Positions 26,811 through 62,657 of a stretch of 64,000 bases of DNA are shown piece after piece. Under the pieces are notes generated by a model that made no database searches, was not told the origin of the DNA, and saw nothing but the letters and a program-made list of their open reading frames with translations. This DNA is from Antedon mediterranea (lineage: Eukaryota > Echinodermata > Crinoidea > Comatulida > Antedonidae), in contig NC_092672.1 in the NCBI RefSeq assembly GCF_964355755.1, positions 27,090,501-27,154,500 of the forward strand, in the 5' to 3' direction. A program made the position numbers and the translations under genes. Position 1 is the stretch's first letter, and the number at the start of each line of letters is the position of its first letter.

Positions 26811-28100
26811 TTTTTTTTTTTTTTTTTTTTTTCTTTTTGAACACTTTCATATTTAAATTTAAAAAATAGCTTAAAATAATAACACTTTCTTATTAATAGT
26901 AATACACAATATACATTTCTCTTAAGAAAAAAATATAAATAATTTCATAATGTAATAAATATAAATCTATTTTTTCTTTTCTCTTAAAAACAAAGTCTAT
27001 AAATAATTTGTTGTCCATTTTTTCTTTTTTAGCATATTTCCACTAAAAAATAATTTAATTAAACATAAAACTTTCTTATTCAAATAAATAGTTATAACTT
27101 ACTAAATAAACAGATGATAAAAGTTCTATAAATTCAAGATTAAAAAAAAAACATTATATGAAAACAGTGCTTTTATTGAACACTATCATATTTCAATTTA
27201 AAAAATAGCTTAAAATAATAACACCTTTTAAATAATAATAATATATAATATACATTTCTCTTAAGAACAAACTATAAATAATTTCATGATGTAATAAATA
27301 TAAATCTACTTTTTCTTTTTTCTTAAAAACAAAGTCTATAAATAATTTGTTGTCAATTTTTTCTTTTATAACATATTTCAACTAAATAATTTAATTAAAC
27401 ATAAAACTTTCTTATTCAAATAAATAGTTTAACTTACTAAATAAACAGATCATAAAAGTCTATAAATAATTCAGGATTAAAAAACATAATATAACAAACA
27501 GTACTAAGTCCTTTTTTTTTTTAATGCAAAGTTACCAGTCAATAAGTTCATGTTTTTCCAAGAAAGGACTCCATTTGTTTAAGTAAGTATGATGCTCCCC
27601 TTTAGTTTTCAAAATAAATTCTTCTTGTTTAACGTGTAACTTAATCTCATTCACGAATCGAGCAATATTAGGCTTAATTTTTCTCATTTTACAGCTATAT
27701 ATGTAGTGTCGACAAATTAGTAAAATAGTATTTAGGGCTTTAAATGTTTTTTTTGTAACTCCAAAAAGGCATAATTCGGGGTTGATAATTACATTTATAT
27801 TAAAATATGATTTCAACCATTGTTTAATCTTTCTCCAAAATATTTTAATTTCACAGCATTGTGCAAAAATATGTATTAAGGTTTCTGTTTCTGCTTTACA
27901 TAAAGCACATAAAGGTGAGTCAATTTTCCCAATTTTATACAAAAAGGAGTTATTACCTAAAATGCTATGCACAATTTTATATTGAAACCAGATTAGTGGT
28001 GTGGACATAGTAAGTGAGAAAAACATGGTATTAATAATTTCCCACTCTTTATCAACATATAAAGTATCCAATGCCTTCTCCCAGGCCTTCACCCAACCCA
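26811..28100 (-). pseudogene. L1/Tx1-like LINE 3' end
   Basis: The minus strand encodes an intact 3' frame (28092-27532). It contains PLIWFQYKIVHSIL and a zinc-knuckle-like CALCKAETETLIHIFAQC, as seen after the reverse transcriptase of L1/Tx1-type LINEs. About 700 bases of AT-rich 3' UTR follow, ending in a poly-A tail (poly-T at about 26811-26834). The UTR carries a direct duplication of about 334 bases (26837-27170 and 27171-27505). The copy is 5'-truncated near 28100. I did not find a clear target duplication. Confidence 0.7.
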
Positions 28101-28117
28101 GCAGACTTGTTCTTGGC

Positions 28118-45246: not shown

Positions 45247-48200
45247 ATGGCAGATGATGATGCTAAAAAAAGGTTCTCTAAATTTAAAAATAATCTCAGT
45301 AAACTATATGAAGGTGACAAATACCCTTGGCTCAGATTTTTTCTGTTTGAACATCTGGATTTGGAGGACGTCACTCAACCAAGCAAAACAGCACTGGATT
45401 TATTCAATGGACTGGAAGAGAAAGGTATCATTTCGCATACTAATGTTGCACTTCTCTTAGATATTGCTACGGTATCAAATTTGAAGAAAGTTATAGAACT
45501 TGTAAGGCAGTATATATCGAGCAATCAAAGTACGTCTGAAGACGATATAAATCACCAGTTGTCACAATATAGGAAAAGGCTTTTTATTGCGTTAAGACAA
45601 GTAGATCCAGATGCATTCAAGCATGTTATGTCTGTTTATGAACTAACCACATTCGGATTCAAAAATATCTGGGAAGCAGTACATAAGTTGGGGCTTACTG
45701 GTCGATTATCTACTGAACAACAACATACAATAATTGAGTTTGCTGAATGCCTTAGCGAACGTGCAAAAAACATATTACTAGGTAGAGGTACGTGGAAAAT
45801 GTTTAGTTTATTTGGAAGTCTTAATTTTCTGTAACATTGTAGCAACATGATGATGATGATGATGATTACATCAATTGTTGTTTGCGAATGTATTGCATCT
45901 ATAATGGTGTATATCAGCAAAGTAATACAAATCATTTTTGAATCAGTACATTGCGTCTATCAGTTCAAAAATTAAATAAAATAAAAATTAAATTAAACCA
46001 CTTTTAAGTTATTGGCGTTTTGTGCTTATTATGGTATGGTTATTTTATGGAAATCATTGATAATTTTATAATTATGTAATTTATTATGTATTTATTTTAA
46101 CATGTTTATTTCTTTGAAAGGTGAAACGGTTTGTGTCACTGTAAATAAGTCTTATATGGGCAGCATGTTTAATGAAGGTTTGAAATCTATTGAGCCACGT
46201 GGTGTTTTAAATAAAATGGAATGGAAAAAGTTAGGAATCAACAACCCAGAAGCATCGATATATTTTTGTTTTTGTACAAAAAATCGACCAGCTTTGAAAG
46301 AATTAATTGACATGCATTACGAGGACGAGCTAATTTACGCTTTAGCAAACGTTTTAAGTGACACAGAAAATCGACAGAAATTTCTAGAAGACTGGGAAGT
46401 AAAGATTGACTCAGATAAAGCCAAAGATGCTTTAAAGAAATTAAAAACTGAAGGTAAATTTTAACAGTTAGAAACCAAAAAGGATCAGTATAATAGAATT
46501 ATGAAGAGTTATTCTATTGTGTTAAATCAACAGTTAGTGTTGGTCAATCATGTGTCAATACTGCGATGTTAGCATTAGGCCTATATTATTGTTTCTCTCA
46601 TACTTTCTTTTATCATTTAAGAGGTACTCACTTCTTGAAGGAAAAATAGTTCAGACATCATTGTGAATTAATTATTTTAACATATTGTTGCATTTAAAGT
46701 TTATTGTCACTAATCGCGATCGTGTCTGTTCAATACAGCTTCAACTTATAACTGATAATTGACTGTAGCGTTCGTTAATGTAGTCCTTTCTGCTTGCGTT
46801 GGCACTTCAGATGTAAAACGTAACGCTCTTTCTTACGTTAATCATTTGTAGCCTGCTATATAGGCATACTGTTGAATTAATGTACCATAAAATACACCTT
46901 AGATAAGCAATTCGATTTTTCTTTTTGATTTGTTGTATATTTCAAATACATTTAACAAGTACATAATTTAACTAATAAATATCTTACAGTTTCATCAAAC
47001 ACTGCGCAGGAAAGCTATGAAGGTAATTATTATTTTCTACTTTTCATGTTCATTTCTGTTGACAAATAATTTCAAGTTATTAACTGAATTATTCCACTGG
47101 ATTACCTAAATTGTGTTAATTATGTTGGCATAACATTTAAGCTGAAATATGCAGAAGTGAAGTAGATAACGTTGCAAATTTCTGAAAATGCCATTTTTTT
47201 TATTTCATTTATAGTCGGTAAGAAACATTTTTTTAATTTTCTCACCTTTGTATTTTAATCTAACTTTACATGACGAGTAAGTTAAAACCAGTAAATTTTT
47301 CTAACTTGTAAGGTTATTGTTTTACTAGTTATCCTGTCATATAGTTCTGTCCAATACAGGGTGTACTCTAATTATGCTGTGTTTTACTTAAATTACTTAT
47401 AACAGATTTAATAGACATGATGACCAAATTAAAAATAACTTTTCTCTTTTTCATTTAAGGTGTGGAAATTGCATTAACTCTCATTAGGAACAAAAGTGGA
47501 AGTGGGAAACCACATGCACTAGAACTCCTTTTCAATTTATTGGCAGAACAGAAAGAGTGGAAGATAAAAGCTGTCAATGAAGTTAACAAAACTATGAAAA
47601 AGCTTGCCGATTATTTCGAAGAAAAGCATCTATATTTTGAGAAAGTAGAAAGTGGAAGTATAGTGTTATATCTAGTGGCACACGACTCAGAAGCATTGGA
47701 AAATCTGTGGGAAATGTATTCAAATAACGAGCTGAAACACGATTTAGTGAAAATATTAGTAACAGATGAATATCAGAATGTAGAGATGGACATTGCAATT
47801 CGTGAACGGGATTACAGCAAAGCATTGGAAAAACTAAAAAAATTTGGTAAGAAAATGTGTTTAGTTGAAAGATTGACTCGTATATAAATGTCTATCTAGA
47901 CAATGGTTTTCAATTCATACATGATTTTTTAAACAGAAAAATCAGACAAGAAATGTGCATTTAAAGAAGAACATAGCTCACAAGCAGGTTAGTCATCAAC
48001 GTTTTAATAAAGTATATAATAGTGTGAAGCGCTAGTAAAATCCACAAACATACACAATACAGCGGGGGCCGAAACGCAAAATGAAATAAAGATAGGCCGC
48101 AAGCATCACGTCTGCCAGTTTCGACTTTATAATATGAGTGTCAGGTTTTCGAATTAGTAAACATGGTGTCATTTATCAATCTATCTATATAAAGAGTTAA

Positions 48201-51200
48201 ATTACAAGTTCTCAAAAACCTTTATTTCAAAATGCATATCGTCGCATATAACAATGACCATGAAAGTATACTGATAGAAAAATAATTAGGACCATATTGG
48301 TGTAAATAAAAGAAATTCATTCTATCACCAGTGAAAAGTAATCTCATTCTACCCTTTCAGTTCATAACTATTGTTATGTTCATAACCCGTGTCCACGGCC
48401 TAATATTTTAAAACCAATTTGACTTACAACAAGTTTTAGTATATTTTTAAAGAAAAAGAATGTTTCAAGTTCTGATAATTCTACGCACGATGCATATTGC
48501 AAGAGTGTTATTATAATACGAGGTCGAACTTGAAGACAGGAGGTTAGAACACAATGACCTGTATTTGTGTGTCAAAGGCCCTGTTCAGACCCATGGCGTT
48601 AGACCGTTTTAGCGTACGACGCTAAAAGAATGTGTGTCTGAACAGTTGGGGATTAGCGTACAACGCGTCGTACAACGGTTGTAGCGTTGTAGTGGAAAAC
48701 GGTTGATAGTACCGTTTTAGCGTACGACGCTACTGTAAGTCAACGTTGTATCCAATCAGAACGTTTCCTGTTATGACGCGAAACAAGGTTTGACCTAGGC
48801 TGACATCTTGTATCGTCAATGTGTGAGATGGATTTCAATAACAAAAAGGCCAGAATAAATAAGGCCTAACTACACTACAAATACAACTGTTACAAAGGCT
48901 ACAAACTATTATCATTTGATTACCATTATATTTTCTAACAAATGACATAAATACATGCACCTTGTATTTAAACATAGGGACTACGATCCCATCCGCTTTT
49001 AGGCCTAGCTAGGCCTAGAGCCATTTACGCATTTCATTCAAGCTAAAAACTAGCGTGGGACATCAAGTCACTCATTCATACAAGGCAGACTAGACTGGAC
49101 AAGTTTAATGCTGAAAACCCCCTAACTCCTAAAAAAATCAGTAAACAAACAAGGGGAGCTGTGTCCCTTTTATTAGCAAGTTAAGGGTTATTTTCAACCG
49201 ACTGGACCAAAGAATATATATATCTTTGACTGGACTGGATAGACTAATCACAATCATATTTTTCTTCATCATTACGATACGAGGCCTGCTTTATTTTCGT
49301 AACGCAAGAGCCTGGGGAGAATGTTTTTAACTACAAAATAAAAACAATAGAAACAGAAATTTGGCTTTACTATATTTTTCTTAAATAAATGCTGAGGTAT
49401 GTTTTATTTACGGCAAATTTTGTCATAATAATAGGGCTGAGATCTAGGCCTATATACAGTGGAAATAATGATGAAAACACGTGGGTAAAAGCACATGAAT
49501 ATGCAACTGGAACCAACCTGGATGACGTACTTCCGTTGTAACGATAATCGTACGCTATGGGTCTGAACACCTCGTTTTTTTCTCTGCGGTTTGTAACGTG
49601 ACCTTGATAGTAACGTTGTACGCTAAAACGGTCTAACGCCATGGGTCTGAACAGGGCCTAATAGTACTTTCTTTTTAATAGGTATGGAATTGAGTGAAAA
49701 AACAATACAGCATTTCTCTTCTATCTCTGAAAAAAACACACTGTCACCAACAGAAAAGGGTAAATGTAACCATTGATTTTTTTCTGTACTGTAATGGACT
49801 TTTCTTATTATATGTGAAACTACTCAAAAAATAGTCTCTCTATTGAATTCCAATTGAAAAGGCACCTGTATTAAGGTTTGTTATTATAATAACATGTTTT
49901 TTTTCAGACGTTATGATATTTCTGAAAGAACAACAAGAAGATTCGTATAGATATATAAACCTAATGGAAGCAGCAGTTTTTGGTGAACAATACAAAGTTG
50001 ATATTGCAGATGTATTCACAGATCTAGAGTTACTTCAATCTACAAAACAAAGACATGTCGACCATGCAACAAGGATGCAAGAATCTAAACGTACACATTT
50101 GAAAGATGTTTTGAAGGTTATCAAATCTAAACGTTCATGTAAAGTTCTTATAACAGGTAAAGGGGGGATGGGAAAGACAACCCTTCTCAGATATATTGCT
50201 TATAACTGGGCTAGCAATAAAGATGATACCTTTTCTGATAAAATATTGTTTCTAATAAATATCAGAGATTTACAGGCTGGAAAGACAATCATAGACACGA
50301 TTGTTGATCAAGTAAACCTTCAGGTTTTCAGTTCGTTTATGAATACAAAATCTCCAAAAGAATTAATTCAACAATTTTTGATCAAACAGGGGGATAAATT
50401 AGTTGTACTATTAGATGGATTAGATGAGATAAAGCAAGGTGTTGAAGTTCCAATAAGCTTATTTATAAGTAGGAATTTTAAAACTACAACATTAATAACA
50501 TCACGACCGGAGAATATTACTAAATTTGTTGAAGCGTGTGATGTGCACATTGAAGTAAATGGATTTAGTAAAGAAAGTCAGAGGCAATACATTGGGAAAT
50601 ACTTTGTCAATAATGAGGATCCCAATAAAGGGAAAATGTTATGTAGTGAATTAACACATAATTCACACAAAGAGAATTCAATAGTTGAACTGTGTTCCTC
50701 GCCACTTTTACTGCTCATGATTTGTAGTATATGGGAAGAGTTCGGCAAGCTTTCTAAACACTTGTCAGATCTTTTCAAAGAATTAATTTGTTGCACTTTA
50801 AATCAGTTTATATTGAAAGAAAATAGGGCGGTAGACAAACCTAGAATTGAAAATGTTGAGAGAATTCCAGTTGAATATAAAAAAGCAATATTGGCATTAG
50901 GCCAATGTATATATGAAGGACTAAAGACAAATAAACTGATAATTGACAAGTATAAATTCACATGTATGGTTGAGAAAAGACCAATAGTAGACTTGGCACT
51001 TAGAATTGGATTTGTTTACAAAAAGCAACCTGTTTCTAAAAGAGATAGAAAGGAGATTTTTGCTCCTCCACACAAGCTACTTTCAGATGCATTAGCAGGG
51101 TTTTACCTTGCTGATAAGTGCCAGTCAGGTGATTTGAATGAGGAAGAGTGTGAAATGATAATGTTTAATGACTATTTGCATACGACAATCGTATTCACTA

Positions 51201-51802
51201 TAGGATTCTTAGGTGCTGATGCTGGTAGATTTATGAAACATTGGTTGAAAGTAAAAGCTTCAAACTATTACTCACTAGCAAAGTACTTTAGATATGTAAA
51301 GGCAGAACACAGAAATTCAGTATTAAAAGAATTAGATAAAGAGATATCGAGGGACAAAATACTGAGAGAAACATGCTCAGAAATGACAGAGTCATTTAGA
51401 AGTGTTCTAAGAATTGGCTCTGTGGGTAAGCTAAAAGCAACACTTAAAAAGACAGATGAACATTTAGTGCAACTTATGAGCAAATATCTAAAATATGTAG
51501 ATGATCAAAGCAATTGTTATGACAGAATTGAAAATACGCTATCAATGATTATGACAACAAGAGCAACTAAATCGACAGCAGATTTTTGTGCTATGCTAGT
51601 TCATATCTATATAATCGTACATGGACTAATGCGTGATAGACACATGCTTTGCAGATATGGCAATGAAAAACGAATATTTGAATTGCATTCATTGGTAGAC
51701 GACAGTGCACTTGATACCCTTTCAGCTGTAATGGAAAATTTTCAATTTCACTACAGCTTTCATAATGTTACAGTTGCAAAATCAGTGACTCCCAAATTCT
51801 AG
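45247..51802 (+). CDS. DED / TRADD-N-like / NACHT receptor-like protein
   Basis: Coding exons: 45247-45787, 46121-46453, 46990-47022, 47460-47846, 47937-47987, 49682-49759, 49908-51802. They join in frame to 1105 residues. Residues about 15-85 look like a death effector domain (ALDLFNGLEEKGIISHTNV, as in FADD or caspase-8). The rest of exon 1 is helical and unassigned. Exon 2 (181-291) and exon 4 (303-431) hold related repeats with pattern SIVLYLVAHDS and ENLWEMYSNNELKHDLVKIL, resembling the TRADD N-terminal domain. Exon 7 carries NACHT: Walker A GKGGMGKTT (558-566), Walker B LVVLLDGLDE (639-648), sensor TTTLITSRPE (667-676), then a winged-helix-like region. It stops 430 residues later without leucine-rich repeats. 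Expected role: cytosolic oligomerising immune or cell-death receptor. Exon 1 could instead end at 45781 (donor GTAGAG), also in phase. Confidence 0.8.
45849..45866. repeat. (ATG)n microsatellite
   Basis: Six ATG/GAT units in intron 1 of the NACHT gene. Confidence 0.8.
48577..49658. mobile_element. TIR element in NACHT gene intron 5
   Basis: The ends GGCCCTGTTCAGACCC and complement are identical for about 42 bases, and subterminal copies of gttttagcgtacgacgct occur. Length is about 1.08 kb with no transposase. I could not see a matching target duplication. The GGCCCTGTT end resembles PIF/Harbinger-type MITEs, but that is not settled. Confidence 0.7.
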
Positions 51803-52128
51803 AATCATTTTTTGAAATTTTCTTCTAACCTGGACTTTCTAGAAGTTACACATGAACGTGAAACATATCGATCTTATGTTGTGTATATAGGCCTAACCTC
51901 AATGGAAAATTCTTCTGAACTGAAGGCAAACAAAAAGTCTTTCATATGGTAATGAAACAATGACGGCCTTTTTTAAAACTCATCAATCAAATTAAATTTT
52001 ACATCGAATTTATGTTTCAATGTAGCTTGTATACAAGTACCTTGTCTATTGGTAGACACTCATAAAGCGAGTTTAAAGCTCACAAAATGGTATAGAAATG
52101 GGATTAATTAATTATACCGTTTTTTCTG
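51803..52128 (+). other. 3' UTR region of the NACHT gene
   Basis: Noncoding. An ATTAAA at 51991-51996, about 190 bases after the stop, is a possible polyadenylation signal. Confidence 0.4.
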
Positions 52129-53053
52129 TTAGGTTAAGGCAGAAACTATTGAGGGCCTGAATCCCTACATAAATATTCATGATGTGACGGAAAACCATGG
52201 AAATAGTTTTCACGTGGTAATCGAAAAGATCTCTCGTCGCGCTGCTAGGGTAGCTGCTGCAAAAAATCACCAACCATTTAGCCGCACGTACGTATAGTAT
52301 TAAAAATTGAGTCTAAATGAAATTGAATAAGAATTTGACACTTAAAATGACATTTTCTATATATACATGGGAAAATCCATGGAACTGCTAATGCAAAAAC
52401 AAAATAAATAAAAATAAAATCGTTATAAGATATATATGTTGCTTATGTTTCTGAAATATTAATTTTTTTGACATCCGATCCAATAATGTACATATTAAAT
52501 GAAGTAATTAAAACTCACACATAGCCTTAGAATCAATTGTGATACAGGTTTAATTATATCAGGCCTACATATTAACGGATTCTTCCTAAAAAAGAAAGTA
52601 AAATGTATTCAGCAACGCGACAACGTCAGGCTACTGTAGGCCTATATAACTAGCGTACGATGTTCGTCCAGCCAGCTTACAAAACTAAGCCCAACTAAGC
52701 TGGGCCTAAACGTCTACAAGAGAACTTTCGACGCGAGCTACTTATAGGTAGTGCATTGTTTTTCTCTTTTTATCATAATCAACCTTAATATAACGCACAA
52801 TTAAGACAAGAAATGACCTGGTTTAATGTTTTTAAAGTTATTTAATGCATTATTTTTTTAAACGTCAAAATTTGCAGGTCTAGTGTCTTTAACAACAACA
52901 TCGAGAGAAAAAGAGTACACTGACTCCGATCTGCACTGCGAACGTGCATCAGACAGTTAAGTGTGTTTTGCAAGTATGACGTGAGGAGCTCAGACATGAA
53001 TCATGAATATTCATGATATATGCACGCCCTCTATAGTTTCTGTCTTAACCTAA
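52129..53053. mobile_element. 0.9 kb TIR element
   Basis: Starts TTAGGTTAAGGCAGAAACTA and ends tagtttctgtcttaacctaa, about 28 bases of inverted ends. AATATTCATGAT occurs near both ends. No coding sequence. Confidence 0.65.
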
Positions 53054-54639
53054 TAGGAAAAAATTCCGGCGGGACAAGTAATTTACAAAAAAATGAAAAA
53101 GGACAGTGAATATTTTAATTTTAAGCTTTAGAAAATTTGAGAAAAACAGCTTTAGAAATAAATGAAGTATAGCATACTAAAATACAGCATTATCTGGTAT
53201 GAGTACCGGAGCACGGACGACGATTTAAACACACAAATACCCAATGATCACATATTATTAGTTATATGAGTATTATTACACTTAAGTTTTTGTTTAATAT
53301 CTTACCAATCGATCTAAAACTTAGTCTACATTGTAAAAATGTCAGATATTATTGATGTGGTTTTATTTTCTAAACAGGTGAATCTTCTGGTTAATGAGGA
53401 AATCATTAACTAGAACTGATCCTGTCAGTTAATCACATCATAATAATATCTTGCAGATCTGTAATTGGTTCTAAAACATGATAGGGGTCCAGTCATTCTA
53501 GCGTAAAAATAGGGTGAACCTGGAACAAATTGCAATATATTTTTTTTTCTTCAGAGACGTCATCTATATCATGTCTAGTACTCCAAAAAATCTAAACAAA
53601 TCCGATTTGGGGAACATTTTTAAATCTTCATTTCAAAATGGACGCTATTTTAATAGGCATGTATATATCTTTGTAACTAGTGGACATATATAGAGTCGTT
53701 TCAGTGTCATATTGTTCACAATGTATATGTTTATATTTGCTCTGTGCATGGGGTGACTAGAACAACCCATGGGATTTTGATATTTGACTTGTGTTTGAAA
53801 TATCTAAATAACGAATGGTCGTAGCTAACTTTAAGCCAATTTAAATTCAGCTATTTATTAAATGTATTTCTTTAAAATGTTAAAATATTTGCTGTAGAAT
53901 GCTACTTGTGCCAAATATTTCAGTTTGCAATTGAATGTTAGTACTGTAAGTGACTATGTCAATTTAAACTTTAAGCCAATCATAATAATTCAGCTATTAA
54001 ATTAAATTTTAAATAGATTTGTTGCTTGTCTAATATAATGCAAAATATTTCTATCAACGACATTTAAGTGAATGTCTCCTTAAAAGCAAGGGCTTCATAG
54101 AACAAAGCCAAAACCATGAGACTCGCAAAAAAGTTTCTAAACAATAAAAAAATTGGATCATTGGAATATTGAAGCGTTGTCAGTAAAAATACAATATTGT
54201 ACAAGCTCATTTTTGGATCCAAAGATTGCAAGAATCACTATAATAGGCGCACATGAACAATTTGAATATCATTTGGAAATAAAGAATTGTTGGTGGTGGG
54301 TTTGATGCTTGCCTTCCAATCCACGGGTACTCTGAGTTAAAATCCAGTGTCTCATGCTTTTATTTCATGATGGATTACAAATCCATTTCCCAAGTTTCGG
54401 GTAGACACAGCACTGCGGTTACCGTGGGTCAGCAGCAAGACCCGTATCTCCCGATATTAGGTGATAAGGTGATTAGTAGTATTATAGTCCAAACTTCCAC
54501 CTCTTACTTTCGACAGCGACATGTCTATCTATCTGCTTCAGATATAGTGTCAACATTGCATTGCATAATCACCATCGGACCAATATTCACCATATTTCAT
54601 CTACAATGATATAATTATAATCTAAGGCACAGTGATACA

Positions 54640-55020: not shown

Positions 55021-56744
55021 TAATTTTGTTTCTTTTCAATTTCAATTTTTTCGTTTCTGTCGTATTTATATGGTGTTGGTTTTTTTTTGTTATACAGTAT
55101 CACGAACTTGTGTAAAAACAATCAATATTGATTGAACGAGTTGTACTGCACATCAGTCTCGTGTCTAAATAAAGTTTATATATATACTGTCAGAGCAATG
55201 ATGTTATCTTTCAGTAGGACTTTGTTTTGGCATTATCCCCTTTGCCAAACCATCCGGTCACAGCAGTTACGTAGGCTATCACATCATTCTTGTGTTAATG
55301 ATTGGGGAAAAACTAGATATTGTCAACTTTCGCTGGCGTCCTTACTTCAAATCAAGTCATATTCATTCATAGAAGCCATGGAAGTGCTGATAAAGACGAT
55401 CCATCTGGCATATAATGAATAGTATAACCTTAACTAACTTTAGCAGAAATATTTATTAGCCTATAAATGAATAAATATAAACTTAAACTTAACTGAAGTT
55501 TTTGTTGAAACTAATGTATTTTAACTACAGTGTAAATAGTGTACCGTATTGTATCATAAATATATAATTAATTATTTATACATTGAAGTCAATATACACA
55601 ATTCTGTCTCCTTCATCTTTTGTCAAACAAGGTAATAATTAAATAAGTACATTTAACAAATAGCTGAATTGTGATTGGCTTAAAGTTAGAATTAAATCAG
55701 ATTACTTAAATAGCTTACGGTAGAAAAAAAAGTTAATGAGAACACTTGTATTTATATATCAAAAGATTACAATGTGTGTTTTGAAGAATTTGAAATCACA
55801 AGTACCATTCCGCGGCTGCAATTTTTAAAGGTTAATGGTCAATATTACGGTTCCAGTAAAAACAAAATATTCCATTCGAGTAAATATAACTATAGGCATA
55901 TATTATGAACAATTTTCGCTTAGTTCTCTCTCTAATAGACAGGTTCCATTTCTCAAAAAACGGCCTAGAAAACGAATCAAGAAGCATTTTTGGGTAGAAG
56001 CTGGGATCCACTTGGTTTAGGATATTTCGACCTCGCTGATTACGAATATGGCGGATCCCAAGCGAAATTCGGCCATCTAAGCCCTTAATTTGCATAATTA
56101 AAAATGGCGGCCATTTTTTATAATTACCCTATATCTCGAGAACCACTAGTCACAGATAATTAATTTTGGTGTCAAAATGTTTTAAATATATGGTTTTATA
56201 TTCACTTTAATGACACATTTTCTCAAAAAATTGATGCAAGTCGTATTTCTGACATTTTGACCTTTGACCTTGATTTATCGTATCTCAGTAACCAATAATC
56301 GGAGAGACACAAAATAGGGCTCAAATTGTTCAGAAACTATACATTCATATTTATTATAATGAAATGTTTTTACAAAAAATGGCCGATTCTACAACTATTG
56401 ACCTTTGAACTATTAGTCAAATATAATAATATAATAATAATATAACTTTGAAAATTGTGGTCTTATGAATTTTTTTTTCTTTTTAAATTGTTTAAAACAT
56501 GTGTGTTTCTATCCAGTCTAATGGCATATTTTGTACAAGAATGGCCGATAGTATGGTTATTGACCTTTTAACTACAGCATAGGCCTACTGTATACTAAAT
56601 ATAATATAATTGCATAACTATGAAATTATTTATACACAATAATAATTAGTAACATTATAAAATTCACTGCCATCAAATATGATGTGTTATGATTTATATA
56701 GATTTAAAAAGGAATTTGAATACGCAAGTTACATTTTTTGAAAT

Positions 56745-57385
56745 TTGAAATTTGAAATTACCTGCCATCAATATGATGGAGTGTGCTTATAGATTTTCTA
56801 AAATGTGAACATGTCAGCTACATTTGGAAATTACCTGCCATCAATATGATGGATTATGATTATAGATTTAAATAAAAATTTGAACACGTAACCTACATTA
56901 GAAAATTACCTGCTATCAATATGATGGATTATGATTATAGATTTAAAAAAGAATTTGAACACGTCAGCTACATTTGGAAATTTGGAAATTACCTGCCATC
57001 AATATGATGGATTATGATTGTATAGTACCTGCCATCAATATGATGGATTATGATTATAGAATTAAAAAAGAATTTGAACACGTCAGCTACATTTGGAAAT
57101 TGGGAAATTACCTGCCATCAATATGATGGATTATGATTATAGATTTTAAAAAGAATTTGAACACGTAAGCTACATTTGGAAATTTGGAAATTACCTGCCA
57201 TCAATATGATGGATTATGATTGTATAGTACCTGCCATCAATATGATGGATTATGATTATAGATTTAAAAAAGAATTTGAACACGTAAGCTACATTTGAAA
57301 ATTACTTGCCATCAATATGATGAATTATGATTGTATAGATTTAAAAGAAAATTTGAACACGTACGTAAGCTACATTTGGAATGAA
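56745..57385 (+). repeat. Minisatellite, left arm
   Basis: Nine units of about 35-90 bases. Each contains the palindromic core CATCAATATGATG, followed by gattatgattatagatttaa and gaacacgtcagctacatttg. It lies in the left arm of the inverted repeat. Confidence 0.85.
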
Positions 57386-57489
57386 CATGTTAAGGGCATC
57401 AGTTAAGATCATTCATGCAAAGGTTTCCGTCATCTTTAGCGTTGTTACAGCGGCATAAAGCTGTACATGGTAGTTTTGACTTCTTGCAC

Positions 57490-58460
57490 CTACATCTATT
57501 GGCAGGTTATGTATCGTGTCTTGCATCCACAATAAATCATCTCTAACGAAGCAGTAGGAATAGCTTCATTTTTCAGAAGCACTGGTTGAAGTTTACCATT
57601 AGATAGCTCCCAACCAAAATATGTTGGTGATGGCAAATGCTGGATTGGCGATACAGCTTTTTTCCATACGAGTGCTTGGAAGTGTGCTCTTTTTATATGT
57701 TGGTGCACTGCATCGCTTGTTGGAGGTAATGCCTTTTTTTTTTAAAGCCTAACTTTATTGGTACTTTTAACTTGACCAACACCGTAAACGTAGCAAATGA
57801 ATCTTTCCGATTTCATAATAACTTGGTCACTGATAGGTTTTCTCCCAGGTCTTTAATTAGTTCATACCTTTTTTTAATACTTCCCATGCCGATGCCTTTG
57901 AGTGACCACTTAGATATGAGCAGTGAAGAGTTAAATTACTGTATGTATGTATTAATATAATTTAACTCTTCCCTGGATATGAGGTAGTATCGCATCCACT
58001 AATAGTGTGGAATGGAATCAGTGCTTTTGCAGAACCCTCGGGCAAGGCTTGAAAAATGTCTTTTATAGATACTTTCTTTTTTTGGATGTCCCTGTCATCA
58101 TCCATTTGGATACCATGCTTTGGTAGTGAGACACTAGAATCACTAGTACGTCTGTATCCCTAGAAGCAACTACAACTGTGTCGTATCGGACATTGGCAGC
58201 ATGACAAGTCTCGTGTCCGATTCTTCATGGTCTGACCAGAGACAACGTATTCGTGTACAATTTTGATGATTTAACAACTGATTCTTTCATAAATCCACCA
58301 GCTGTGACAATTTCTTTGTCTATAGGAGCTTGACGAATCAACTCCTCTGATAGAAATCGTGTCAGATCTGCATTATTATCTTGTAATGCCAACAAGTTTG
58401 ACCAGCAATTTGGCAGCGGTATTTCACCACTTTCTATAATTCGACGAATTGGTCTCTGTG
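57490..58460 (-). pseudogene. PIN-like nuclease / CXC family gene, second member
   Basis: On the minus strand, from 58460, I read NCWSNLLALQDNNADL, then SRDTDVLVILVSHY (acidic nuclease-like motif), then PFHTISGCDTTS (57978-58013). A broken middle leads into HFQALVWKKA, PSPTYFGWELSNGKLQPVLL and CGCKT at the end. It belongs to the same superfamily as 2313-3811 but a different subgroup. Several stops and frame changes interrupt it. The C-terminal part lies in the arm of the inverted repeat and the rest in the unique spacer. Confidence 0.65.
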
Positions 58461-58504
58461 TTTTGGTTCATCTTTGTCTGGTGGTGTCCTTTATCGACAG
58501 TTTT

Positions 58505-58771
58505 AAGTTAGGCATGCCATGTTTAAAAAAAAAAAAATTACCTCCAACAAGCGATGCAGTGCACCAGCATCATATAAAAAGAGCACACTTCCAAGCACTC
58601 GTATTGAAAAAAGCTGTATCGCCAATCCAGCATTTGCCATCACCAACATATTTTGGTTGGGAGCTATCTAATGGTAAACTTCAACCAGTGCTTCTGAAAA
58701 ATGAAGCTATTCCTACTGCTTCGTTAGAGATGATTTATTGTGGATGCAAGACACGATGCATAACCATATAG
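58505..58771 (+). pseudogene. Inverted duplicate of the PIN/CXC gene 3' end
   Basis: Encodes HFQALVLKKA, the PSPTYFGWELSNGKLQ segment and CGCKTRC almost identically to 57750-57490 on the other strand. It has no upstream part and is a product of the inverted duplication. Confidence 0.8.
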
Positions 58772-58929
58772 ATGTAGGTGCAAAAAGTCAAAACTACCAT
58801 GTACAGCTTTAATATGCTACTGTAACAACGCTAAAGATGACGGAAACCTTTGCATGAATGATCAAAACTGATGCCCTTAACATGTTCATTCCCAATGTAG
58901 CTTACGTGTTCACTATTCTTTCAAACCTA

Positions 58930-59400
58930 TACAATTATAATCCATCATATTGATGGCAGGTAATTTCCAAATTTCCAAATGTGGCTGACGTGTTCAAATT
59001 CTTTTTTAATTCTATAATCATAATCCATCATATTGATGGCTGGTACTATACAATCATAATCCATCATATTGATGGCAGGTAATTTCCAAATGTAGCTGAC
59101 GTGTTCAAATCCTTTTTTAAATCTATAATCATAATCCATCATATTGATGGCAGGTAATTTTCTAATGTAGCTTATGTGTTCAAATTCTTTTTTAAATCTA
59201 TAATCATAATCCATCATATTGATGGCAGGTAATTTCCAAATGTAGCTGACATGTTCACATTTAAAAAAATCTATAATCATACTCCATCATATTGATGGCA
59301 GGTAATTTTAAATTTCAACAAATGTAACTTGCGTGTTCAATTTTTTTTTAAATCTATATAAATCATAACACATCATATTTGATGGCCGTGAATTTTATAA
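58930..59400 (-). repeat. Minisatellite, right arm
   Basis: Six or seven units with CATCATATTGATG, the reverse complement of the left array, with fewer units. Confidence 0.85.
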
Positions 59401-60424
59401 TTTTACTAATTATTATTGAGTATAAATAATTTCATAGTTATGCAATTATATTATATTATATTCAGTATACAGTAGGCCTATGCTGTAGTTTAAAGGTCAA
59501 TAACCATACTATCGGCCATTCTTGTACAAAATGTGCCATTAGACTGTATAGAAACACACATGTTTTAAACAATTTAAAAAGAAAAAAAAATTCATAAGAC
59601 CACAATTTTCAAAGTTATATTATTATTATATCATTATATTTGACTAATAGTTCAAAGGTCAATAGTTGTAGAATCGGCCATTTTTTGTAAAAACATTTCA
59701 TTATAATAAATAAGAATGTATAGTTTCTGAACAATTTGAGCCCTATTTCGTGTCTCTCCGATTATTGGTTACTGAGATACGATAAATCAAGGTCAAAGGT
59801 CAAAATGTCAGAAATACGACTTGCATCAATTTTTTGAGAAAATGTGTCATTAAAGTGAATATAAAAACATATATTTAAAACATTTTGACACCAAAATTAA
59901 TTATCTGTGACTAGTGGTTCTCGAGATATAGGGTAATTATAAAAAATGGCCGCCATTTTTAATTATGCAAATTAAGGGCTTAGATGGCCGAATTTCGCTT
60001 GGGATCCGCCATATTCGTAATCAGCGAGGTCGAAATATCCTAAATCAAGTGGATCCCAGCTTCTACCCAAAAATGCTTCTTACATCATATTTCAGAGGAA
60101 ATAGAACTTGTCTATAACTGTACGACGATACAATATTTCGATAGGCAAACACGGCTCAAAGGTCAAAATTGCAGAAAGGGTTTTCTAGTCACTTTTAGAA
60201 GAAAAAGTTGCATTAGAGTTAATATAAATATACATTGTGAAGAATTATGACACCGCAATGACTCTATACGTCCACTAGCTATTTTGAAATTACTATTTAA
60301 ACATGTTCCTTGACTTAGATTGCAATTGATATTTTGGAGTACTAGACATTGTATAGGTGGAATCCCTGTAGAACAAACATGTTGCAATTTGTTCTAGTTC
60401 CATCACTAGAATGACGGGACTACT

Positions 60425-62657
60425 GTAAAATTGAGGCATTTGAACTTCAGTTATCTCAATCTACTTATATAAATAAATAAATTGGCTTAACCATGGGTAA
60501 AATATAGTTTTGTTTTTTTTATCGACGTTAGCTTGATTTATAATGTTCTCCACAACTACAACGTCTTGATATGAGCAAATGCCACCTCCAACAGTAGTAC
60601 TCCCAAGACATTTATTGAACTAATGTGATAGAAACAAAGCTAACCCGACAGGCTTGATCTAAAGAAAAGCGATACATGTATTATGTTTCTGGTTGGACAA
60701 ATAAAAACTATATATCATTGCTATCTGTTCCCTGTTTCCGGACTAATAGACTTAGGCCTACGTGGACTCATTTTCCTTTGTTGCATCCTCTTCTTGTAAC
60801 GAACTACCTCCTTTTGTTAATCTTTCCCCCACTCATTTAAGATTAATTTAAAAATTCATTTATTTAGCAAATTTCATGATACAAGGCGCATTTGATCATC
60901 TTTTTTTGGAATTGGCACTATATAAATGTTTTATTGGTATTTTTATCTAAAATTATATACATTATCAGAAATAAAGTTATATAAAACAGTGTCATTTTCA
61001 TTCATTGAGATAATAATAATATGGGCAGCGCACATCTAATAGTCCTACCCTAAGGATTTATACCTGATTCGTCAGGTTTTAACTTGACCCTTTTTAACAT
61101 GACACGCCAATTAATTTCTGAAGCTCCGGCGTAAATAATTTGAAATCAAAACACTTGAATAACCAGGACAGAGTGAAATTAATAGTAGTAATTTCAATCT
61201 TCACTGGAATAACGAAGATACTAGCTGTTGGCCACACAAAGCGAATAAAAAATGTATGCAGTCCAATATAACTGTCGCCATGAAGGATGAACTTATTCAT
61301 TAATTAGTCAAAATCGTCAACTCCCAGTGATGCACGATTTAACTTATTTCCGGAATTTGAATATAAAGAAGATGGTTTCTTTTATCTGGTATTTTTGTAT
61401 ACTTTGGGAAGAAATGTTGCCATTTTACCCAATTAACCTACGACGACGATGATACTGTAATTTACTGCTGTTTTATATAATTTATTAAAATAATTATTCA
61501 TGCGTCTATTTTTATAATCTTTAATGTGCGTATGTAAATCTTGTATGCCTAGCCTATAAACTAATGCGTCAATTCAGCTATTATCTGCTGACGTCTTTTG
61601 TATTTTATAGTGTCTTGAGGAAATTTATAGAAAAGCCTGTTTTTATAATTTCGTAGTTTCTATTTTATATACATTTAAATATGGATTTTAATATTCTTAT
61701 ATTGTTTATGTGATCAATTATATTTTAATAGATTTATATTTTATAGTGTTTTGATACAATACTGGACTAGCTTAAGAGCCTACCTATAGGGCCTCTCATG
61801 ATGCAATTTCTTTCTGTTTTAATTGTTGTAACATATATTTCAAATAGTTTGTATGTTATTATACTGTTTTTATCGGATGTTTTATTATTTGTAATTCTTA
61901 TGTTAAGTGCATTTAAGACTTGTTTGTATTTTATAGTGTTTTGATACAATACTGGATTAGCCTAAGTCTTTTGATGCAATTTCGTATTGTTTCTATTGTT
62001 GCGCATACATTTTTAAATACAAATTTTCTTATTACTGTTTTATTGGATGATTTATGTTTTATAATCGTTATACCAAGTGTATTTAAATGGATGCCTAATT
62101 ATGGTGGTGGTTTGATGCAATAAATATATCGAAATAATATAAAACATAACTTTCTTTGTGTTAGTTATTTTTTCTTTTCGACATTAGCTCTACCTAACGA
62201 AAAGTGATATCTAATGGTGATAATTAATGCACGTTCAGCTTTTTGTAAACATTTTTTTAACATTTTGCTACACTTCGTTTGACTGATATTTCGAAAAACA
62301 AGCTGTAGAAGTGCGTGACTTCTATAACTACTATACTTCGCATCTAAAGTTTGAGCGCTCTTTTGACCTAGCATCCCGGCCTAGCATTTGTCAATAATTT
62401 ATGACAGATAAGTTTGTTGAATGGAGAGAATAATACATTCGATGAAAAAATAAACAACCTATGAAATATTCTCACTATCCAACTCAAACATTCATTATTT
62501 GTATATTAGTGAATGTTTATGAATTTACTGATGAGAAAATTTCATGAGATGTCATTGTCCTAAAAAGAAGCCCATTGGCTTCTTTACGGTATGCATTTTG
62601 AGCCAAAAAGAATAAACCAAGAAGCAAGACGGTCAAACTTCATGAAGCAGTGCACCA
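60425..62657. other. No gene seen; retroelement tails and tandem repeat
   Basis: 60800-60945 looks like a CR1/L2-type LINE 3' end (ggcactatataaatgtttta). 61610-62120 holds degenerate tandem units of about 190 bases that start attttatagtgttttgataca (61739 and 61929). Open frames at 61094-61300 and 62165-62374 (minus) have no recognisable domain. A hairpin AAGAAGCC-catt-GGCTTCTT lies at 62564-62583, shortly after the CCDC157 copy B stop. Confidence 0.4.

Follow-up and report, generated by a model that had tools for sequence, protein, structure and literature searches.

The crinoid Antedon mediterranea carries, on contig NC_092672.1, a predicted gene in which a DED-type exon and two TRADD-N-like domains precede a NACHT ATPase. 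In this report, we describe this gene and argue that it is probably a chimeric NOD-like receptor (NLR) gene, assembled from two gene families and later deprived of its leucine-rich repeats (LRRs). The window, that is, the whole stretch of 64,000 nucleotides that was analysed, corresponds to C3:27090501-27154500 in a genome of 354 Mb in 18 contigs; coordinates without a contig or locus prefix are window positions. The gene model (45247-51802), which was rebuilt from the raw sequence, consists of seven predicted exons that join into a single frame of 1103 residues, and all of its introns are phase 1 with GT-AG ends. Its exons are as follows.

45247-45781, plus strand: exon 1, a DED-type exon with the start Met, a DED and a helical-looking C-terminal half
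46121-46453, plus strand: exon 2, T1, the first TRADD-N-like repeat
46990-47022, plus strand: exon 3, a predicted linker exon of 11 residues, based on its phase-1 splice sites
47460-47846, plus strand: exon 4, T2, the second repeat, TRADD-like_N (PF20694)
47937-47987, plus strand: exon 5, a predicted linker exon, perhaps from the TRADD-N gene family
49682-49759, plus strand: exon 6, an NLR-family linker exon with an in-frame ATG at 49684
49908-51802, plus strand: exon 7, the NACHT ATPase and its helical region, ending at TAG 51800-51802

By profile and by its intact motifs, exon 7 is a NACHT STAND NTPase. It matches Pfam NACHT at 2.1e-20 (73.7 bits, cut-off 26.7) and contains intact Walker A (GKGGMGKTT) and Walker B (VVLLDGLDE) motifs. 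Exon 1 alone falls under the Pfam DED cut-off (E 1.1e-4, 22.8 bits; cut-off 35.9), yet 14 of the 15 aligned members of its family, the window's among them, reach E<=0.1 against the DED profile (6.8e-9 at best), and for this reason we call the exon DED-type. Its two halves, compared with hhalign in search of a second DED, gave no mutual match (0.6%). An alternative end to exon 1 is offered by a second phase-1 GT 6 bases downstream, which leaves the frame unchanged. Short peptides weakly similar to exon 3 (E ~2) lie between T1 and T2 in two related loci, L007 and L011. A preliminary description of this stretch had placed a DED, two related domains and an intact NACHT in one gene, and this arrangement is borne out by the seven-exon frame and the profile matches; the residues that it assigned to the two domains (181-291 and 303-431) agree to within a few residues with exons 2 and 4.

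The profiles of the two central domains indicate that T1 and T2 are homologous, T1 being a divergent paralogue of T2. The two were aligned by hhalign with a probability of 98.3% (E 1.4e-14); as a control, none of 200 column shuffles of the T1 alignment exceeded 5.5% or bettered E 0.007. Several comparisons support the assignment of T2 to the TRADD-N superfamily. T2 narrowly passes the cut-off of Pfam TRADD-like_N (23.9 bits against 23.7), and this profile matches 11 of 13 T2 alignment members at E<=1. The genome's best TRADD-like_N match (44.7 bits) follows a DED in a DEDD-like gene, L022 (C8:15155800-15158799; gene C8:15156223-15157812). The T2 profile matches the TRADD-N part of this gene with an independent E-value of 2.8e-5, obtained in a very small search space (two short loci), and hhalign pairs the two at 73% (E 3.1e-5), with 200 shuffles of the L022 sequence giving at most 8.5% (E 0.004). 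The DEDD-like gene thus shares with the window gene a DED followed by TRADD-like_N; it differs in that the 3 kb fetched contain a single match to TRADD-N and none to NACHT.

TRADD-N domains are characterised by the uS motif, in which the turn joining strands 2 and 3 carries a tiny residue and then Ser, or sometimes Cys (Kaur et al. 2021, PMC8195603). For this motif, T2 has Gly-Ser in 12 of its 13 members and Gly-Cys in one. In T1, all 13 members have the Ser; the residue before it is Ala or Ser in seven of them and Thr in six. The Gly-Ser pair lies between two strands in both of two low-confidence AlphaFold models of T2, the second of which (pLDDT ~50) has the order E-H-H-E-E-H-H-E-H, as expected of an RRM-like fold. 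A comparison of T2 with 250 random open frames was not used as a control; its top eight matches were relatives of T2 themselves. The T2, T1 and DED exon profiles found no match better than E 0.11 among PDB sequences. An origin of T2 in the NCOA6 clade was considered and rejected, as no match was found to the TRADD-like_N locus on C11, which is labelled NCOA6-like solely from a long, glutamine-rich frame.

The front half of the gene has many relatives. The genome contains 51 places matched by T2 at E<=10, 36 matched by T1 and at least 150 rows matched by exon 1, the window being included in each count. Twelve loci were chosen for an apparent run of a DED-type exon and the two T domains (C4:33018480, C4:13446532 and weaker candidates were left out). 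All 12 have the order DED, T1, T2, a count that is no rate, because the choice of loci was not random. Phase-1 boundaries are shared by most of the T1 and T2 exons shown, and L007 and L013 have an additional DED-type exon after T2. At the 12 other DED-T1-T2 loci, no NACHT was found within the fetched 10 kb. LRRs lie downstream of T2 in L015, and a RING-type frame lies downstream of T2 in L007 (with NHL repeats), L008 (with B-boxes) and L009 (with both). The last three may be TRIM-NHL fusions or neighbouring genes; no phase-1 acceptor was found at the start of the RING frame, and the frame of L008 begins with its own Met, so that we claim no fusion there, nor do we at L015.

The back half has kin of its own. 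A search with the NACHT exon returned 77 rows, some of them split copies, at ~71 places including the window (71 of 163 candidates scored), and Pfam NACHT found 103 places including the window (103 of 162 candidates scored). The paralogues considered here, L001-L006, are six of the eight best NACHT rows after the window itself; the closest paralogue is 64% identical to exon 7 over 618 amino acids. None of the six shows a T domain in the piece fetched. Five of them have a DED-type exon upstream of the NACHT, and for L004 one lies just outside its fetched piece. The paralogues that the preliminary description suggested looking for thus exist for both halves, in the form of a family of DED-T1-T2 loci and of NACHT relatives. 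In a nine-row tree, the window's NACHT groups with those of L001 and L005 (96/96), on a branch of 0.28 as against 0.29 for intact L001. The DNA of exon 6 is matched upstream of the NACHT in L001 (71%, E 1.4e-5), L004 (73%, 1.7e-4) and L005 (71%, 0.002), and exon 5 has its only match in L014, a T-family locus, downstream of T2. Because exon 6 matches NLR linkers and exon 5 matches a T-family locus, the junction between the two parents most probably lies in intron 5, where the following element resides.

48576-49659, plus strand: inverted-repeat element inside intron 5, with 49-nt ends that are 96% complementary

The kinship of the halves with two separate gene sets is a matter of observation, and on this basis the gene appears to be a chimera produced by exon shuffling, with its join in intron 5.

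Two further places in the genome bring TRADD-N and NACHT modules near each other. At L010, a DED-T1-T2 triplet is followed 14 kb on, on the same strand, by L019, which has a NACHT and 11 overlapping LRR matches; between the triplet and this NACHT there is no DED match, and a retroelement-like frame (L010:7363-9831, DUF1759) is present. At L020/L021, a DED and one T domain are followed by a NACHT-LRR 8 kb on, again on the same strand. The NACHTs of these two places form a clade apart from that of the window (100/100 in the nine-row tree). If L010/L019 and L020/L021 are single genes, then the cassette would have joined NACHT receptors at least twice.

The preliminary description took the absence of LRRs as the mark of a distinct, repeat-less class. 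Its observation that the frame ends soon after the ATPase is correct, the terminus being the TAG at 51800-51802, and homology to LRR-bearing paralogues continues beyond this point. All six NACHT paralogues run from NACHT into LRRs in the same open frame, and the TAG sits at the NACHT/LRR junction of the window gene, where the window reads KF*NHFLKFSSNLDFLE against KFMIHLLKYSSKNLIYLKF in L001 and KFLSYLLKYSPNLEYL in L002. The features past the stop are these.

51803-51840, plus strand: in-frame homology past the stop, aligning to LRR-bearing paralogues
52120-53063, plus strand: inverted-repeat transposon lying between blocks homologous to LRRs; related copies occur across the genome (40 of 1761 candidates scored)
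53286-53401, plus strand: possible LRR remnant, first block, 68% to L002, E 2.0e-4
55979-60081, plus strand: foldback transposon between LRR-homologous blocks, with 632-nt arms that are 99% complementary
60520-60668, plus strand: decayed LRR remnant, 73% to L002, E 1.9e-17, with stops and frameshifts

The three blocks retain the order and strand that they have in L002, with spacings of 1,445 and 7,118 bases here versus 43 and 136 bases there. Matches to the foldback arm are 99-100% identical in the 40 scored of 1321 candidates, the window's two arms among them, and because the scored copies are so alike this element probably moved recently. Given the in-frame homology past the stop, the remnant LRR blocks and the transposons between them, the lack of LRRs is most likely a secondary loss. 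The notion of a repeat-less class is not upheld, since LRRs are present in six of six paralogues, and an in-frame stop and decayed LRR DNA are present here. Repeat-encoding sequence past 51802, the finding that the preliminary description had named as telling against its view, occurs at the level of DNA, but that DNA is no longer open. The C-terminal sensor repeats that, along with ligand-induced, NTP-dependent oligomerisation, serve to define NLRs are missing from the gene's frame and persist only as remnants.

These facts lead us to an interpretation that we consider likely, if well short of certain: the gene is a chimeric NLR gene that arose by phase-1 exon shuffling between two families and whose LRRs were later lost to a stop and transposons. 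The front half (DED, T1 and T2) would stem from a local family of DED-TRADD-N-TRADD-N genes and the back half (the exon 6 linker and the NACHT) from a DED-NACHT-LRR receptor family. The halves would have been joined via phase-1 exon shuffling within intron 5, and the LRR part would have been lost afterwards through the in-frame stop and transposon insertions. That both halves make up one transcript we infer.

A number of observations count against this interpretation or against parts of it. Pfam TRADD-like_N matches none of the 13 T1 alignment members, and T1 is therefore called TRADD-N-like by its homology to T2 only; a direct comparison of T1 with the TRADD-N of L022 gave no match (hhalign 0.4%). 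A genome-wide PF20694 search at E<=0.001 found two places, and the T2 exon of the window was not among them. The AlphaFold models of T2 are poor (pLDDT 53 for the single-sequence model and 50 for the two-row model), and fold searches with them gave generic matches, many of them ferredoxin-like, at Z<=5.5, with TRADD not among the matches listed, an outcome that is uninformative either way on TRADD-N. The preliminary guess of TRADD-N is thus supported for T2, on the strength of Pfam, the L022 match and the Gly-Ser motif, and reaches T1 only through T2. Exon 5 comes perhaps from the TRADD-N gene family, as suggested by its weak match to L014, which spans 35 nt (80%, E 0.089). The advantage of the LRR-like block at 53286-53401 over shuffled sequence is only some ten-fold (best E of 30 crude shuffles in two-base blocks, 0.002). 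LRR arrays are repetitive, and the block at 60520-60668 aligns with further repeats in L002 as well as with repeats in L001, L003 and L004, so that its assigned position in the array is the best-fitting one. The ratio of nonsynonymous to synonymous substitution rates (dN/dS) of T1 against T-family paralogues is 0.40-0.59 by NG86 and 0.94-0.95 by YN00, and constraint on T1 is not shown because of the latter value. Finally, the join from T2 to NACHT is predicted, and the ATG at 49684 in exon 6 could start a separate NACHT gene.

Among other explanations, a decaying pseudogene without a product seems to us unlikely, though it would accommodate the stop at the LRR boundary, the young transposon in the former LRR stretch and the T1 dN/dS of ~0.94 (YN00). 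The seven exons have intact splice sites and no other stop. Further, the dN/dS of the NACHT exon against L001, its closest paralogue, is 0.44 (NG86) or 0.38 (YN00), an average that cannot isolate the time after truncation, and the NACHT branch is no longer than that of intact L001. The ratio and the branch length together fit ongoing constraint on the NACHT or recent truncation equally. Against the other four paralogues, the NACHT ratio is 0.35-0.55; against T-family paralogues, that of the DED is 0.34-0.56 and that of T2 0.51-0.68.

We judge it distinctly unlikely that the model merges two adjacent genes, the first encoding a DED-TRADD-N-TRADD-N adaptor and closing with exon 4 or 5, the second being a NACHT gene that begins at exon 6. 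Such a division would suit the length of intron 5 (1.7 kb) and the inverted-repeat element within it, the continuation of the exon 4 frame to a stop at 47887, the position of the in-frame ATG two bases into exon 6, and the 12 other triplet loci with their NACHT-free 10 kb. The NACHT and linker exons, however, start in phase 1, which fits the phase-1 donor of T2, and no DED-type exon is listed between T2 and the NACHT in the window, whereas one lies upstream in five of the six NACHT paralogues. Moreover, the order of modules on one strand recurs in L010/L019 and L020/L021, albeit with the 14-kb and 8-kb gaps. It is very improbable that LRR-less DED-TRADD-N-NACHT sensors make up an ancestral class of their own, in keeping with the distinct class of the preliminary description: a stop does close the frame where the NACHT helical region ends, and the rest of the frame is intact, but the homology and LRR remnants past the stop, as well as the LRRs in six paralogues and in the two other TRADD-N-plus-NACHT loci, argue against it.

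In the chimeric receptor that we favour, the NACHT would bind ATP and oligomerise, and the DEDs thus clustered would recruit DED-caspase relatives. Candidate partners are the caspase domains at C2:9118468-9119073 and C2:8900438-8901088, each downstream of two same-strand DEDs. TRADD contacts the MATH domain of TRAF2 via TRADD-N (PMC8195603), and the TRADD-N pair may likewise contact TRAF-type MATH partners; TRAF MATH domains are present in the genome. Without LRRs, the protein would not sense ligands alone. Its role may be that of a scaffold or regulator (helper or decoy) of intact relatives; alternatively, it may be constitutively tuned or already turning into a pseudogene. A more ambitious proposal, that it is a working LRR-free signalling NLR of the helper or decoy kind and that the DED-TRADD-N-TRADD-N cassette moved as a unit via phase-1 exons onto separate NLR clades, strikes us as quite unlikely.

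Gene products of this general kind have been reported. In marine invertebrates, DED-TRADD-N front ends occur with variable partners, STAND NTPases included (PMC8195603). The metazoan expansions described there, in the DEDD2 and NCOA6 clades, resemble our gene in their constant DED-TRADD-N front and variable C-terminal modules, among them the STAND NTPases of C. virginica, and share the uS motif, in the turn that links strands 2 and 3, with its T2. The window gene departs from them in its duplicated TRADD-N and in its C-terminal NACHT, which is of an LRR-receptor clade and has no in-frame LRRs. Amphioxus, sea urchin and Nematostella also have combinations of DED and NACHT (PMC2575513). The DED serves as an N-terminal connector on the NACHT in those receptors as it does here, where L001-L006 are NACHT-LRR genes; the window gene differs in having two TRADD-N-type domains between DED and NACHT and no in-frame LRRs. 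Fusions of DED, TRADD-N and STAND modules, and DED-NACHT receptors, are thus already published, and the duplicated TRADD-N on a NACHT is the variant. Literature searches turned up no paper that, going by its title and the beginning of its abstract, describes a duplicated TRADD-N on an NLR; supplementary tables may hold one. The "distinct immune or cell-death sensor class" of the preliminary description is not supported as a class and stands as a combination of modules in one predicted gene; the general kind is represented in both papers cited above.

If our reading is correct, the locus illustrates an exon-level route to new receptors in an expanded repertoire of invertebrate immune genes, in which a DED-TRADD-N-TRADD-N cassette of matching intron phase is set before the NACHT of another family. 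Two separate NACHT clades would have received the cassette if the other loci are single genes. The locus also suggests a route by which a sensor may become LRR-less, through a stop and transposons at a domain boundary, and it carries a caution: one should read past the stop before naming a short NACHT frame a new class. The link from TRADD-N to an NLR may connect TNF-type with inflammasome-type signalling in a way that is open to testing.

Some minor features of the window and the genome were also noted. Ten other open frames of the window gave, against Pfam at E<=0.001, only one weak reverse-transcriptase zinc match (zf-RVT, 3.3e-4, under the cut-off), at 27535-28116 on the minus strand, perhaps a remnant of a long interspersed element. 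The segment 62173-62383 matches L003 just upstream of its NACHT frame (~75%, E 6e-11 and 5e-6), in the orientation opposite to the NACHT gene, and is probably a shared repeat. Elsewhere, C2:9118468-9125547 and C2:8900438-8902232, both on the minus strand, have two DEDs followed by a caspase domain and are caspase-8-like candidates. Three places (C9:14107698-14165504, C3:17087114-17145462 and C4:16658379-16716849) each have tandem DED frames and, ~57-58 kb away on the same strand, a caspase-family frame; the scores are identical among the DED frames and identical or nearly so among the caspase-family frames. More copies occur on C3 and C4, and these pairs perhaps belong to a large mobile or viral-type element that carries both genes.

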